Positions 4,094 through 9,319 of a stretch of DNA of 64,000 bases are shown piece after piece. The number at the start of each line of letters is the position of its first letter. The first letter of the stretch is position 1. A program made the translations under genes and the position numbers. The notes under the pieces were generated by a model. It was not told the origin of the DNA. It made no database searches and saw only the letters and a list, made by a program, of their open reading frames with translations. The stretch comes from Pseudomonas serboccidentalis (GTDB lineage Bacteria; Pseudomonadota; Gammaproteobacteria; Pseudomonadales; Pseudomonadaceae), in NCBI RefSeq assembly GCF_028830055.1, contig NZ_CP101655.1, forward strand, positions 3,003,382-3,067,381, given 5' to 3'.

Positions 4094-4843
4094 TCAATAG
4101 ATGCTGAACGGGAAGTACTTGTCGTTGATCTTCTTGTAGGTACCGTCGGCGACGATTTCCTTTAGGGCGGCGTTCAACTTCTCACGCAGTGGGTCGCCTT
4201 TGCGCACAGCGATGCCGATCTTGTCGCTTTCCACAACCGGGTCGCCTTTGAACTCGTAGGCTTTGCCCGCGTCGGTTTTCAACCAATCGTAGTTGGCGTA
4301 CTTGTCGGCGAGGATGGCGTCGACACGACCGGAAGTCAGGTCCAGGTAGGCGTTTTCCTGGGTGTCATAGAGTTTGACCTCGATATCGCTACCGTAGGTG
4401 TCCTCAAGCCAGGTACCGGCGAGCGTGGCGCGCTGCGTACCGATGATCTTGCCTTTGAGCGAATCCTTGTCGGTTTTGAAATCGACATTTTTCGGTGCGA
4501 TGAACTGCAGCTTGTTCGAGTAGTACGGGTCGGTGAAGTCCACCGCGCCCTTGCGCTCTTCGGTGATCGACAGCGAGGACACCAGGAAGTCGAACTTCTT
4601 GGCATTCAGCGCAGGGATGATGCCGTCCCAGTCGGAAGTGACCACGGAGCATTCGACTTTCATCTTGGCGCACAGGGCGTCGCCGATGTCTTTGTCGAAG
4701 CCGACCACGTTGCCGCTGGCGTCTTTATTGTTGAACGGCGGGTAAGCCGCTTCGATGCCCATCTTCAGGGTCTCGGCCATGGCACCGGCGCTGAACGCGA
4801 GGGTGACGGCGGCGGCCAGGAAGACCTTTTTAAAATTCTGCAT
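4094..4843 (-). CDS. hisJ: Periplasmic basic amino-acid-binding protein (HisJ/ArgT type)
   Basis: The 249-residue protein has a cleavable signal peptide (MQNFKKVFLAAAVTLAFSAG, cleavage after AMA) and an SBP_bac_3 fold. Family landmarks are YPPFNNKDASGNVVGFDKDI, the DWDGIIPAL segment and FDFLVSSLSITEERKG, all characteristic of lysine/arginine/ornithine/histidine-binding proteins. It sits between hisP and hisQ, 13 bp after hisP. It delivers the ligand to HisQM in the periplasm. Specificity within basic amino acids is not decidable here; the symbol is given by family resemblance only. Confidence 0.88.
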   Translation of the reverse strand: MQNFKKVFLAAAVTLAFSAGAMAETLKMGIEAAYPPFNNKDASGNVVGFDKDIGDALCAKMKVECSVVTSDWDGIIPALNAKKFDFLVSSLSITEERKGAVDFTDPYYSNKLQFIAPKNVDFKTDKDSLKGKIIGTQRATLAGTWLEDTYGSDIEVKLYDTQENAYLDLTSGRVDAILADKYANYDWLKTDAGKAYEFKGDPVVESDKIGIAVRKGDPLREKLNAALKEIVADGTYKKINDKYFPFSIY

Positions 4844-4856
4844 GCATGTTGCTCCG

Positions 4857-5630
4857 TTAGCGGTTGCTGGACATGAATTGTTTGCAGCGCGCCGAAAGCG
4901 GGTTTTCGAACACCTGCTGAGGCGATCCTTGCTCTTCCACCAGGCCTTGGTGAAGGAACACCACTTCGCTGGAGACCTGACGGGCGAAGCCCATTTCGTG
5001 GGTCACCAAAAGCATGGTGCGGCCTTCTTCGGCCAGTGCGCGGATGACACTAAGTACTTCCTGAACCATTTCCGGGTCAAGCGCGGAGGTGGGTTCGTCG
5101 AACAGAATCACCTTCGGCTGCATCGCCAACGTGCGGGCGATGGCCGCGCGTTGCTGCTGGCCGCCGGACAGCTGCGACGGATACGCGTGGCGCTTGTCAG
5201 CGATGCCGACCTTGGCCAGCAGTGCTTCAGCGACTTCGATCGCTTCGGCTTTGCTCTGGCCGAGTACGCGGCGGGGGGCTTCGATGATGTTGTCGAGCAC
5301 GCTCATGTGCGGCCACAGGTTAAAGTTTTGAAACACAAAACCAATCTCGGAGCGCAGGCGATTGATCTGCTTGCCGTCGGCGGCAACCAGCTCGCCATTC
5401 TTGGCGGGCTTGAGCTTGAGTTCTTCACCGGCCACCAGAATCTGGCCCTGGTGCGGGTTTTCCAACAGGTTGATGCAACGCAGGAACGTGGACTTGCCGG
5501 AACCGGAGGAACCGAGGATCGAGATCACATCGCCGTCGCGGGCGGTCAGCGAGATGCCTTTGAGCACCTCAAGCTGTCCGTAGCGTTTGTGCAAGTTGCG
5601 GATTTCAAGCGCGGGCGTGGCCTCAGCCAT
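4857..5630 (-). CDS. hisP: Polar amino-acid ABC transporter ATPase (HisP)
   Basis: This 257-residue ATPase shows Walker A GSSGSGKST (about 40-48), the Q-loop region VFQNFNLWPHMSVLDNI, the ABC signature LSGGQQQR (154-161) and Walker B with catalytic Glu, VILFDEPTSALDPE (174-187). The insert after the Q-loop strand fits the histidine-permease subfamily. It is the first gene of the operon, with a good Shine-Dalgarno (GAGGAAC) 6 bp before ATG. It energises HisQM on the cytoplasmic face. Confidence 0.93.
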   Translation of the reverse strand: MAEATPALEIRNLHKRYGQLEVLKGISLTARDGDVISILGSSGSGKSTFLRCINLLENPHQGQILVAGEELKLKPAKNGELVAADGKQINRLRSEIGFVFQNFNLWPHMSVLDNIIEAPRRVLGQSKAEAIEVAEALLAKVGIADKRHAYPSQLSGGQQQRAAIARTLAMQPKVILFDEPTSALDPEMVQEVLSVIRALAEEGRTMLLVTHEMGFARQVSSEVVFLHQGLVEEQGSPQQVFENPLSARCKQFMSSNR

Positions 5631-6182: not shown

Positions 6183-7574
6183 ATGAGCAGTACCCCAAGC
6201 TCCAATGGCCTCGAACAGGGGCTCAAACCGCGTCACGTGACCATGTTGTCGATCGCCGGTGTGATCGGCGCCGGTCTGTTCGTTGGCTCCGGCCACGCTA
6301 TCGCTGCCGCCGGCCCTGCCGTGCTGTTGGCTTACGCCGCCGCCGGTACCCTGGTGGTGCTGGTGATGCGCATGCTCGGTGAGATGGCTGTCGCTTCGCC
6401 AGACACCGGCTCGTTCTCGACTTACGCCGACCGTGCCATCGGGCACTGGGCCGGTTTTACCATCGGCTGGCTGTACTGGTGGTTCTGGGTGCTGGTCATT
6501 CCACTGGAAGCCAACGCCGCCGCAACCATCCTCCATGCGTGGTTCCCGGGCGTAGATATCTGGGCGTTCGCTTTGGTCATCACTATGCTGCTCACCGTGA
6601 CCAACCTGTTCAGCGTGAAAAACTACGGTGAATTCGAATTCTGGTTTGCCCTGATCAAAGTGCTGGCGATCATCGGCTTCATCATCCTCGGTCTGGCGGC
6701 CATCTTCGGCTTCCTGCCGAACAGCCAGGTCAGCGGCGTTTCGCACCTGTTCGACTCCGGTGGCTTCCTGCCCAACGGCATGGGTGCAGTCCTGGGCGCG
6801 ATCCTGACCACCATGTTCTCGTTCATGGGTACCGAAATCGTGACTATCGCGGCCGCGGAATCGAAGAACCCGGGCAAGCAGATCTCCAAGGCCACCAACT
6901 CCGTTATCTGGCGGATCGGCCTGTTTTATCTCGTCTCGATCTTCATCGTCGTGGCCCTGGTGCCGTGGAACGATCCTACGCTGGCCAACCTGGGTTCCTA
7001 CCAGACTGTGCTGGAGCGCATGGGCATCCCGAACGCCAAGATGATCGTCGACATCGTGGTGCTGGTTGCCGTAACCAGCTGCCTGAACTCGGCGCTGTAC
7101 ACCTCGTCGCGCATGCTGTTCTCTCTGGGCAAGCGCGGTGATGCACCGGCCATGTCGACCCGCACCAACAAAAGCGGCACGCCTTACTGGGCAGTGATGC
7201 TGTCCACCGGTGCGGCGTTCCTCTGCACATTCGCCAACTATGTGGCCCCGGCCGCCGTGTTCGAGTTCCTGCTGGCCAGCTCTGGTGCCATCGCGCTGCT
7301 GGTGTACCTGGTGATCGCGTTCTCGCAACTGCGCATGCGCAAACAGCGCATGGCCCGTGGCGAGAAAATCGTCTTCAGCATGTGGCTGTTCCCGGGCCTG
7401 ACCTACGCGGTGATCATCTTCATCGTCGCGGCCCTGACCATCATGCTGTTCCAGGAAGCGCACCGCGTGGAAATCCTCGCGACCGGCCTGCTGAGCCTGC
7501 TGGTGGTCGCTGCCGGCCTGCTGGTAGCACGTCGTCGCAAGCTGGAAAAGCGTGGTGCGGTGGTCTTGAACTGA
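6183..7574 (+). CDS. gabP: GABA permease (APC family)
   Basis: The 463-residue protein begins MSSTPSSNGLEQGLKPRHVT and continues into the amino-acid-permease consensus (MLSIAGVIGAGLFVGSG; about 20-36). About 12 membrane spans follow, plus the family motifs MGTEIVTIAAAESKNPGKQI and SRMLFSLGKRGDAP. These match GabP, the proton-coupled 4-aminobutyrate importer. ATG at 6183 is preferred over in-frame starts upstream because the homology begins there and AAAGG lies about 9 bp before it. It is a single gene with a sigma-54 promoter upstream and a strong hairpin terminator downstream. A related amino-acid substrate cannot be excluded. Confidence 0.85.
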   Translation: MSSTPSSNGLEQGLKPRHVTMLSIAGVIGAGLFVGSGHAIAAAGPAVLLAYAAAGTLVVLVMRMLGEMAVASPDTGSFSTYADRAIGHWAGFTIGWLYWWFWVLVIPLEANAAATILHAWFPGVDIWAFALVITMLLTVTNLFSVKNYGEFEFWFALIKVLAIIGFIILGLAAIFGFLPNSQVSGVSHLFDSGGFLPNGMGAVLGAILTTMFSFMGTEIVTIAAAESKNPGKQISKATNSVIWRIGLFYLVSIFIVVALVPWNDPTLANLGSYQTVLERMGIPNAKMIVDIVVLVAVTSCLNSALYTSSRMLFSLGKRGDAPAMSTRTNKSGTPYWAVMLSTGAAFLCTFANYVAPAAVFEFLLASSGAIALLVYLVIAFSQLRMRKQRMARGEKIVFSMWLFPGLTYAVIIFIVAALTIMLFQEAHRVEILATGLLSLLVVAAGLLVARRRKLEKRGAVVLN

Positions 7575-7591: not shown

Positions 7592-7628
7592 AAAACGGCC
7601 GCTGTCAGTGATGACGAGCGGCCGTTTT
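7592..7628. terminator. gabP/vapC terminator, copy 1 of a direct repeat
   Basis: AAAACGGCCGCT and AGCGGCCGTTTT pair around a short loop; the stem is followed by TGTTTG on plus and by TTGC on minus. It can serve gabP (plus) and vapC (minus). The whole 37-bp sequence recurs exactly at 8394-8430. Confidence 0.8.
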
Positions 7629-7644
7629 GTTTGTGGGCGGTAGA

Positions 7645-8052
7645 TTAGTCAGGGTGCACCCAATCTTCTATGCGCAATCCGGGAACACGTTCAAATTCCC
7701 GCACATTGTTCGTCACCACAATAAGTCCTTGTGAGCGCGCATGACCTGCGATCATTTGGTCATAGGGGCCAATAGGCGTTCCTGCTTTCGCCAGTTCAGA
7801 TCGAATCATTCCGGCTTGTGCTGCTGCATCACCGTCAAAAGGTAATACTTCCAGTCGTGCGACGAATCCTTCGACAACTGAAAGATTTTTTTCGGGAACT
7901 GCCGACTTTTCAGCGCCGTAGATAAGCTCCATGAGCGTGATAGCGCTGATGCACAACTGTCCGGAATGGCGATTGAACGCTTCGCGACAAATCTGTGGTT
8001 TGTTTTTGATTGTGAAAATGCAGATGTTGGTATCCAGCATGTATTTGATCAT
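7645..8052 (-). CDS. vapC: VapC-type PIN-domain toxin ribonuclease
   Basis: This 135-residue protein has the PIN-domain pattern: LDTNI with Asp7, Glu42 in LMELIYGA, Asp98 in PYDQMIAGHA and the VTNNVREF end motif. LDTNICIFTIKNKP at the head and VTNN near the C-terminus resemble the VapC group that cleaves initiator tRNA. Its ATG shares one base with the vapB stop (TGATG), so translation is coupled to the antitoxin. All active-site residues are present, so the toxin looks functional. The tRNA-fMet target is inferred from subgroup resemblance only. Confidence 0.9.
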   Translation of the reverse strand: MIKYMLDTNICIFTIKNKPQICREAFNRHSGQLCISAITLMELIYGAEKSAVPEKNLSVVEGFVARLEVLPFDGDAAAQAGMIRSELAKAGTPIGPYDQMIAGHARSQGLIVVTNNVREFERVPGLRIEDWVHPD

Positions 8053-8282
8053 CAGAACGACTCACGCTCCTGATCATTCGGTTGCTCACGGTCAACCATG
8101 AAATCAGCGGAAACGTCATCGCCATCGAACCAGCTATCCCAGCTTTCTCCAGCCGGTGTGATCACGCGTGTTCTACCGATAGCGATCACTTCTACTCGTT
8201 TGACATCTCCGGGCATTGCGACTGCCTTTGGCAATCGGACGGCCTGGCTCCTATTGCTCATGAAAATTGTGGTTTGCTCCAT
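8052..8282 (-). CDS. vapB: VapB-type antitoxin (AbrB fold)
   Basis: The 76-residue antitoxin starts MEQTTIFMSNRSQAVRLPKA, the swapped-hairpin DNA-binding segment of AbrB/VapB proteins, and ends in an acidic tail (WDSWFDGDDVSADFMVDREQ) that would thread into the VapC active site. The start at 8282 is fixed by GGAGG 7 bp upstream; a longer frame to 8390 runs through the promoter and is rejected. It is autoregulatory in known relatives. Confidence 0.88.
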   Translation of the reverse strand: MEQTTIFMSNRSQAVRLPKAVAMPGDVKRVEVIAIGRTRVITPAGESWDSWFDGDDVSADFMVDREQPNDQERESF

Positions 8283-8317
8283 ATTCGGCCTCCAAGGTCT
8301 GCGCCTGCAATGAACCA

Positions 8318-8345
8318 AGAATAGGTTGTGGCTTGGATATGTCAA
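8318..8345 (-). promoter_or_regulatory. vapBC promoter with possible operator
   Basis: Minus-strand TTGACA (plus 8340-8345) and TATTCT (plus 8318-8323) are 16 bp apart. GGATAT occurs at 8335-8340 and again at 8348-8353, flanking the -35 box, and could be the VapBC operator. Confidence 0.55.
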
Positions 8346-8393
8346 TGGGATATACGTTGCTCTCGGACAAAGAGTTTTCAGGTCACCCAATCA

Positions 8394-8430
8394 AAAACGG
8401 CCGCTGTCAGTGATGACGAGCGGCCGTTTT
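8394..8430. terminator. Terminator, copy 2 of the direct repeat
   Basis: It is identical over 37 bp to 7592-7628, and similarity continues for about 12 bp (GTGGGCGG). It lies just beyond the stop of the minus-strand gene at 8447 and would end that transcript. Confidence 0.8.
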
Positions 8431-8446
8431 TGTTGGTGGGCGGGGT

Positions 8447-8899
8447 TTATTCGCTCTTTTCTTCCGGCGTATCCACCGACTTGCCGTAAGCATCCAGCGC
8501 AACCCCGAAATCGGTGATGAACTGCGGCTCGCTCAGCCAGGCCTGGGCGGTTTCGATGTCCATGCCGTCGGCCCACATGCGGTAGTCGATCAACATGTCG
8601 GCGGCCAGGTGGGTGGCGGCCATGCCTTCGTTCTCGGCGTTTTCCATGTCCAGCAGCTCTGGATGATCAACGATGATGAACGCCAGTTCGCGCAGCAGCG
8701 TCAGCAGCATCTCGTTGCGGCTGACGGCTTCGGCGTCGCGCATTTTGCTGAACATCGCCAGGGTGTATTCCGGGATCGGCTCGGCCAGATGGCCGAGGTC
8801 ATCGTCCTGTTCGAGCGGCTTACGGCCGACCATGCGGATGTGCTTGGCTTTGGCCTTGGCGCGTTTGGCGCGTTTCTGTTGCTTGTTCAGGGATGCCAT
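8447..8899 (-). CDS. Basic-headed hypothetical protein, paralogue A
   Basis: The 150-residue protein has a strongly basic head (NKQQKRAKRAKAKAK, residues 5-19), then an acidic, largely helical domain with FSKMRDAEAVS and DYRMWADGMDIETAQAWLSE. It is clearly a paralogue of the next gene upstream (8906-9319), sharing the basic head, F-x-KM-x-DAE-x-(V/I)S, YR-x-W and AW-(L/I)-x-(S/E)-P. No catalytic motif is visible. A nucleic-acid- or ribosome-binding role for the head is a guess. The genes are 6 bp apart and probably form one transcript ending at 8394-8430. Confidence 0.65.
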   Translation of the reverse strand: MASLNKQQKRAKRAKAKAKHIRMVGRKPLEQDDDLGHLAEPIPEYTLAMFSKMRDAEAVSRNEMLLTLLRELAFIIVDHPELLDMENAENEGMAATHLAADMLIDYRMWADGMDIETAQAWLSEPQFITDFGVALDAYGKSVDTPEEKSE

Positions 8900-8905
8900 G
8901 GGAAC

Positions 8906-9319
8906 TCAGTTCTTCTGTTGGGATTGTGCGGCGATCGCGTCGGACGCCGCTACATAGTCGGCTTGAAAGGCCGGGGATTCGATCCATGCCAGCGCGCCGG
9001 CTTCGTCGGTTTCTTTCGACCACTGACGGTACTCGATCAGCGCGGCGAGGATGAAATCCATCGCGCCTTCTTCGCCTTCCTGGTCAAAGACCAACTCCAG
9101 CAGCGGGTCTTCGAGGAACGCGGTGCACATGGCTTGCTGGCTGATCTTCTCGGCGTCGATCATTTTCTTGAACAGCTCGGTCAGGTCCACCGACTCGAAA
9201 TCGATGCGGTCATCGTTCGGGTCCAGCTCGACTGGCGCCTCGGCGCGTTTGGTGCGGTTCTGCTTGGCCTTGGTCTTGGCCCGGGCGGCGCGTTTTTGCT
9301 GCTTGTTGGCGGAGGCCAT
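8906..9319 (-). CDS. Basic-headed hypothetical protein, paralogue B
   Basis: The 137-residue protein starts MASANKQQKRAARAKTKAKQ, then has an acidic linker (VELDPNDDRIDFESVDL) and a helical domain with FKKMIDAEKIS and EYRQWSKETDEAGALAWIES. It is the tandem duplicate partner of the following gene; divergence outside the shared motifs is high, so the duplication is old. I cannot assign a function. Confidence 0.65.
   Translation of the reverse strand: MASANKQQKRAARAKTKAKQNRTKRAEAPVELDPNDDRIDFESVDLTELFKKMIDAEKISQQAMCTAFLEDPLLELVFDQEGEEGAMDFILAALIEYRQWSKETDEAGALAWIESPAFQADYVAASDAIAAQSQQKN

Follow-up and report, generated by a model that had tools for sequence, protein, structure and literature searches.

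Restriction-modification genes have been described to insert with target duplications that are long (around 100 bp) and variable (PMC3874152), and long target duplications at such genes go back to Nobusato et al. 2000, as cited in extracts of PMC1643837 and PMC3031569. The minimal mobile elements of Neisseria (Saunders and Snyder 2002, cited in an extract of PMC3898611) are, by that account, incorporated solely by homologous recombination. Homology-facilitated illegitimate recombination is a further described process (extracts of PMC3240628). Among the literature matches listed, in which subscription journals were thinly covered, two papers combined vapBC with target duplication, one on carbapenem-resistance islands (PMC8373256) and PMC3874152, whose passages concern restriction-modification, and no report of vapBC moving with duplicated terminators was found.

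In our view, the spread of chromosomal toxin-antitoxin pairs that carry no mobility genes is poorly explained. Here we analyse such a pair, vapBC, in a stretch of 64,000 nucleotides of Pseudomonas serboccidentalis DNA (the window), where it is set between two copies of one terminator. A first-pass annotation had read this layout as the insertion of a toxin-antitoxin cassette with duplication of the terminator, or as recombination between two terminator copies; our analysis confirmed the observation and partly supported its interpretation. We propose that vapBC is probably a recombinase-free cassette at a site of gain and loss between gabP and a gene at position 8447 (the 8447 gene), where insertion duplicates the target, the repeats later decay, and the cassette can be lost or exchanged.

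Materials and methods

The protein encoded by the 8447 gene was sought in 298 genomes of the genus, 211 of which matched (96 at E < 1e-40, the window's included). The terminator with its flank was sought in 298 genomes (85 matched) and VapC in 398 genomes (94 at E ≤ 1e-30). The collections used held one genome per species, and fragmented assemblies occurred among the relatives. The resulting 221 loci comprised 100 found via the gene or the terminator, the window itself, 40 found via VapC, and 80 named loci found via the 8447 protein, this named set being the best 80 of 161 loci. One locus without an anchor (L168) was dropped. Requiring gabP and the 8447 gene at ≥70%, with a gap no longer than 2.5 kb, left 159 loci, and removal of 32 duplicates left 127. 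A locus was called empty when its gap was at most 125 bp.

A flank tree was built from the DNA of gabP, 8447 and 8906. Transferred blocks were sought by a change-point search in 15 chosen pairs of loci; the fits for L255/L139 and L170/L266 were not used because a missing neighbour gene dominated them. For vapBC at other chromosomal places, direct repeats were sought by comparing 300 bp on the left with 500 bp on the right.

Results

The vapBC locus

The features of the locus are collected in Table 1. VapC scored 71.6 bits against PF01850 (cut-off 23.6) and 231 against NF010285 (cut-off 143), and VapB scored 113.6 against NF040493 (cut-off 60), with a Pfam MazE-type match of 21.2 that lies under its cut-off of 24.7. 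Of the unit as first annotated, i.e., vapB promoter, vapB and vapC, the two genes score above their NCBIfam cut-offs and the promoter is presumed; within the upstream region, GGATATGTCAATGGGATATAC was identical or almost so across the vapBC loci displayed in alignments. Open reading frames of at least 50 aa in 7592-8430 were vapB, vapC and frames that overlap them. The gap that holds this cassette lies between two convergent genes, gabP and 8447. The pair resembles tRNA(fMet)-specific VapBC (NF010285) in gene order, in its PIN domain and in its above-cut-off scores. Its proteins show nothing unusual, and it presumably acts as an ordinary type II toxin-antitoxin; what is unusual is the genomic setting. 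To the right of the cassette, 8447-9319 is occupied by two adjacent paralogues of 150 and 137 aa without a Pfam or NCBIfam match.

Table 1. Features of the vapBC locus, with positions counted from the first letter of the window
Feature	Position	Strand	Basis and remarks
gabP, GABA permease	6183..7574	+	TIGR01773 749 bits, cut-off 678; left conserved neighbour
Terminator copy T1	7592..7628	.	Putative bidirectional hairpin, 3' of gabP and vapC; repeat search and fold
Right of T1	7629..7641	.	Probable eroded rest of duplicated stretch; GTGGGCGG at 7633-7640
vapC, predicted PIN-domain tRNA(fMet)-specific endonuclease toxin	7645..8052	-	PF01850 and NF010285
vapB antitoxin, directly upstream of vapC	8052..8282	-	NF040493
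vapB upstream region	8283..8390	-	Contains GGATATGTCAATGGGATATAC at 8335-8355; presumed promoter/operator
Terminator copy T2	8394..8430	.	Putative bidirectional hairpin, 3' of the 8447 gene; repeat search and fold
Right of T2	8431..8446	.	Counterpart of 7629-7641, to the stop codon of the 8447 gene; GTGGGCGG at 8436-8443
8447 gene, 150-aa protein	8447..8899	-	No Pfam/NCBIfam match; right conserved neighbour; search anchor

Two copies of one terminator

The 37-mer AAAACGGCCGCT...AGCGGCCGTTTT is identical at T1 and T2, and the similarity that had been noticed to continue past the hairpin amounts to 81% across 64 ungapped nt. No third copy at three or fewer mismatches occurred in the window (shuffle mean 0.00, n = 100). 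In a genome-wide repeat search (5,997,322 bases), T1 and T2 were the only good matches among those listed, the remaining listed matches being 14-30 nt long with E > 1. Both copies folded on both strands at -30 to -38 kcal/mol (z -5.0 to -8.1), and T-runs accompany the hairpins, as would be expected of a bidirectional terminator.

At each copy, 16 nt lie between the hairpin and the leftward gene's stop codon, so the repeated unit comprises the terminator and its 3' flank. Within that flank, GTGGGCGG lies behind both T1 and T2 and was not found behind any other hairpin among the hits listed for the 127 loci. The hairpin itself is widespread: 143 copies matching the 37-nt pattern, from 115 of the 127 loci, fell into 28 distinct forms, with the form of the window seen 34 times (its own two counted), and variation was mainly in the loop and bulge of a nearly invariant stem. 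Because the hairpin is so strongly conserved between species, the identity of T1 and T2 is by itself no proof of a recent duplication. The 16-nt spacing and the shared GTGGGCGG would be stronger evidence of duplication, and the sharing of this rare motif could stem from a recent event or from gene conversion. Within loci, the mean edit distance between T1 and T2 was 1.09 against 2.17 when permuted (p 0.0001, kinship not corrected for). As a match, a locus's own T2 was closer than the T1 of the nearest carrier in 14 cases, tied in 9 and farther in 10 (n = 33), and homogenisation of the two copies within loci is suggestive only.

High conservation could also make unrelated copies alike, as would be the case if T1 and T2 were two independent convergent terminators of a widespread sequence, one serving gabP and vapC and one the 8447 gene, with no duplication having taken place. 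We find this scarcely credible, given that the genome holds two good copies only among the matches listed, that the likeness extends into the flanks with a shared rare motif, that empty relatives have one hairpin, and that a relative carries an exact duplication (see below).

Occupancy of the site among relatives

By filling, the 127 loci comprised 66 that were empty, 27 with vapBC only, nine with a gene that we call M only, seven with both, and 18 with other contents. The gap measured 74-83 bp in 63 of the 66 empty loci and all 66 gave a single hairpin hit, in keeping with the first-pass annotation, which held that gabP and the 8447 gene would converge on one shared terminator if the cassette were absent. 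Single-terminator strains lacking vapBC, which it proposed to look for, are common (66/127) and include a near relative of the window, P. koreensis DSM 16610 (L209), with flanking genes 95% identical. We take P. koreensis, the nearest named relative of the window, to belong to the P. fluorescens group. Also near the window, L210 is empty and L211 carries vapBC.

Among the 34 vapBC carriers the orientation of the pair was the same in all, and the hairpin flanked it on both sides in 33 (at most 10 edits in 35 nt); the left copy of L266 was not found at 10 edits. A stricter hairpin listing gave at least two hits in 29 of the 34. One locus (L124) is an array of terminator-vapBC-terminator-M-terminator, and its sister L100 has one terminator.

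The site accepts other contents. Gene M, which encodes a 108-aa membrane-type protein without a Pfam match, fills the gap in 16 of the 127 loci (L071, L091, L099, L108, L114, L115, L123 and L132 among them), and the M-only loci displayed have a related hairpin (CGACCGC type) left of M. In other loci the gap held antitoxin-like genes, alone or incomplete, and what by eye looked like REP sequence and a transposase of the IS110 type. The transposase frame, of 342 aa, is that of L122 and sits in the gap to the right of its single terminator. In L069, L089 and L093 (gap ~319 bp) a lone short frame stands right of a single terminator, with no toxin and no second terminator, and its end is VapB-like by eye (TTWDEWFDDEEKSRRDFMLSRD in L093).

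No flanking repeat (scores 8-10) was seen in L129, L146, L148, L150 and L175, which have vapBC near an 8447 homologue without gabP, or in L174, where gabP is present and the 8447 gene is not; these six loci speak against our proposal. The search proposed in the first-pass annotation, for VapBC flanked by copies of a neighbouring terminator in other genomes, returned no such case: across 33 vapBC loci elsewhere (L176-L208, part of the places listed), direct repeats scoring at least 19 were found in three (L178, L204, with 25 bp, and L205), none of them a terminator by eye. Two of these were rejected as further examples, L205 since its repeat looks dispersed by eye, and L178 since its left repeat copy sits in a separate insert of ~1 kb beside vapC (compared with L181). 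Within that insert, a 3' portion of vapC is repeated and some sequence looks like a neighbouring gene; it may be another instance of insertion accompanied by duplication.

Probable gain, loss and exchange of the cassette

On the flank tree, a quick tree with many weak branches, the presence of vapBC changes at least 28 times. A model of two-way gain and loss (lnL -72.7, midpoint root) was superior to gain only (-80.4) and to loss only (-92.9), and a single gain would require 53 losses. Distances between vapBC copies and between their flanks correlated (Mantel r 0.67, p 0.0001, 561 pairs), so inheritance of vapBC is largely vertical.

One empty locus, L286, is sister to the vapBC-bearing L285 in a fully supported group with L258, another carrier; vapBC is about as divergent between L258 and L285 as their flanks are, and the terminator of L286 consists of a T1-type core joined to a T2-type right flank. 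L286 is best read as a loss of vapBC. There were 14 of the 561 pairs in which vapBC was closer than the flanks, with L081/L217 (0.010 vs 0.244 at 4-fold sites) and L140/L276 (0.011 vs 0.190) as the extremes. The change-point search was clear for these same two pairs, and in most others the limits of the block were not those of the cassette. In L081/L217 the similar block spans about T1 to T2, which fits a transfer or exchange of the cassette through recombination between copies. The second mechanism of the first-pass annotation, recombination between terminator copies, would thus suit both the loss in L286 and the exchange in L081/L217.

A clear loss in L286 beside L285 and L258, together with the correlated distances, would also be in line with vapBC and both terminators being ancestral and only ever lost, by recombination between the repeats. 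We judge this very unlikely given the likelihood of the loss-only model against the two-way model, the 53 losses required, and the acquisitions indicated by L276 and L081/L217, and we retain gain and loss in both directions. For the window itself, the nearest vapBC is that of L211 (91.5% identical, flanks 94.5%). This comparison gives no sign of a recent insertion in the window and neither dates nor polarises the event there.

An apparent fresh insertion in Pseudomonas mandelii

In P. mandelii 6A1 (L276) the order is hairpin-M-terminator-vapBC-terminator-8447, and the two terminators lie inside exact 96-bp repeats (4098-4193 and 4914-5009). Each repeat opens with M's final codon and stop and closes inside the last codons of the 8447 gene. 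vapBC is missing from the M-terminator-8447 junction of its sisters, L123 and L261. The 720-bp insert is 99.4% identical to L140 from end to end, with four mismatches and no gap, and the flanking genes of the two loci are 93.0% identical; identity falls to about flank level at both repeat boundaries. The simplest reading is a recent insertion of vapBC with target duplication, in a single case, which supports the insertion with terminator duplication first proposed for the window. Repeats of 96 bp occur in L276 only, the next longest exact ones being 49 bp (L238) and 45 bp (L113), then fewer. The duplication length is that of one fresh event, and the shorter repeats elsewhere may reflect decay.

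Running through the duplicated end of the 8447 gene and the terminator, the vapC frame of L276 extends to 208 aa. In most other carriers VapC is kept up to DWV and the last one or two residues vary. A cassette whose edge coincides with the vapC end would give this pattern, and so would weak constraint on the terminal residues.

The joints of L276 bear on whether homologous recombination alone, acting via the terminator or via gabP and the 8447 gene, has moved a terminator-vapBC-terminator unit whose duplication goes back to an ancient founder. Much of the survey agrees with this: all 34 carriers share place and orientation, the block of L081/L217 runs about from T1 to T2, vapBC here and in six neighbours forms one clade (40 rows, 100/97) as against nine loci elsewhere, and exact homology of up to 49 bp is available on both sides outside L276. 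However, a crossover in the terminator would place donor-type sequence beside vapC. In L276 the joints instead lie outside the terminator, at the vapC end and beyond the upstream region of vapC; no shared base was found at either joint, and each copy of the repeat is of the recipient type on either side. Homologous recombination alone is, in our estimation, a serious but unlikely account, and insertion with target duplication remains our preferred reading of how the cassette is gained.

A transposon, an integron cassette or an element with a site-specific integrase, for which the hairpin would be the attachment site, could explain why both ends bear hairpins and why arrays such as that of L124 exist. 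Yet no frame between the hairpins of the window was recognised as a recombinase or mobility gene in the ORF list (the family scan covered vapB and vapC), and in L276 the hairpin lies within the duplicated target and not at the ends of the insert. Target duplications of insertion sequences are usually 2-14 bp, which 96 bp far exceeds. Such an element is extremely unlikely here, and we return to a cassette that brings no recombinase of its own.

Discussion

We suggest that the window has undergone the same kind of insertion with target duplication as L276. After insertion, the unselected parts of the duplication would have mutated away and selection would have kept both terminators, probably because each ends different transcripts, T1 those of gabP and vapC and T2 that of the 8447 gene. 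The near-invariance of the hairpin stem agrees with such selection, and the exact repeats, 96 bp in L276, 49 in L238, 45 in L113 and fewer elsewhere, agree with decay. Decay of the repeats with the terminators kept would leave what was first seen in the window, exactly the terminator doubled. The surviving repeats could then act as short homologies, recombination between which would delete the cassette precisely to leave one terminator, and may also let strains swap cassettes.

The insertion step is the least certain part of this proposal. End capture or template switching may take place where the hairpin-bearing gap between the convergent genes suffers a break or stalls a fork, and DNA arriving from a related strain would probably be kept in position through the terminator or flanks that it shares. 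The genomes of L140, L276 and the window all encode Ku, which allows end capture. Guidance by homology is indicated by the place and orientation of vapBC in L276, which are those of its likely donor L140 and which blind capture would not predict. End capture, template switching and homology-facilitated illegitimate recombination are all candidates for the joining process.

The terminator need not be a specific insertion target; the first-pass annotation had raised this idea, which our comparison does not support. The 96-bp duplication of L276 reaches into both neighbouring genes, and since the empty gap is mostly so short, any insertion with a long duplication here would copy the terminator. 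More speculatively, and with considerable doubt, convergent genes that share a perfect hairpin terminator could be general capture sites: where the hairpin causes breaks or stalled forks, DNA from outside that is anchored on this same terminator would be copied in by template switching, which duplicates the terminator and so gives ends to recombinase-free cassettes. If true, the doubled terminators would serve as ready-made ends at which cassettes are later lost precisely or exchanged. As this one site has empty alleles, an apparent fresh case with 96-bp repeats, remnants that are mostly terminator, and a precise loss, the steps are readable and testable, and a small gene unit enclosed by two copies of a terminator suggests itself as a simple pointer to old insertions of this kind.

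Set against the described systems, as the extracts cited above present them, the locus shares part of each. In homology-facilitated illegitimate recombination, a homologous joint combined with an illegitimate one would help to explain insertion at the same site with odd joints; L276 differs from it in having no shared base at either joint of the insert. The minimal mobile elements of Neisseria are alike in that varied whole-gene cassettes stand between two conserved genes across strains, and differ in that here one event (L276) has joints lacking homology. Incorporation by homologous recombination alone, as given for those elements, does not describe L276 but is compatible with L081/L217.

Like the inserted restriction-modification genes, vapBC is a selfish-type pair without mobility genes, and it stands between long direct repeats (96 bp in L276) of which empty strains have one copy. 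The long target duplication is seen in L276; in the window, which keeps 37 bp exact and an eroded flank, it would be the likely origin of the repeat. VapC is an RNase toxin that is not known to cut DNA, and with such a pair as cargo the insertion would not depend on the cargo cutting DNA. The window site differs from the restriction-modification cases in its vapBC cargo and in being one recurrent site, and here the duplicated stretch includes a bidirectional terminator common to both neighbours, which is mostly all of it that survives.
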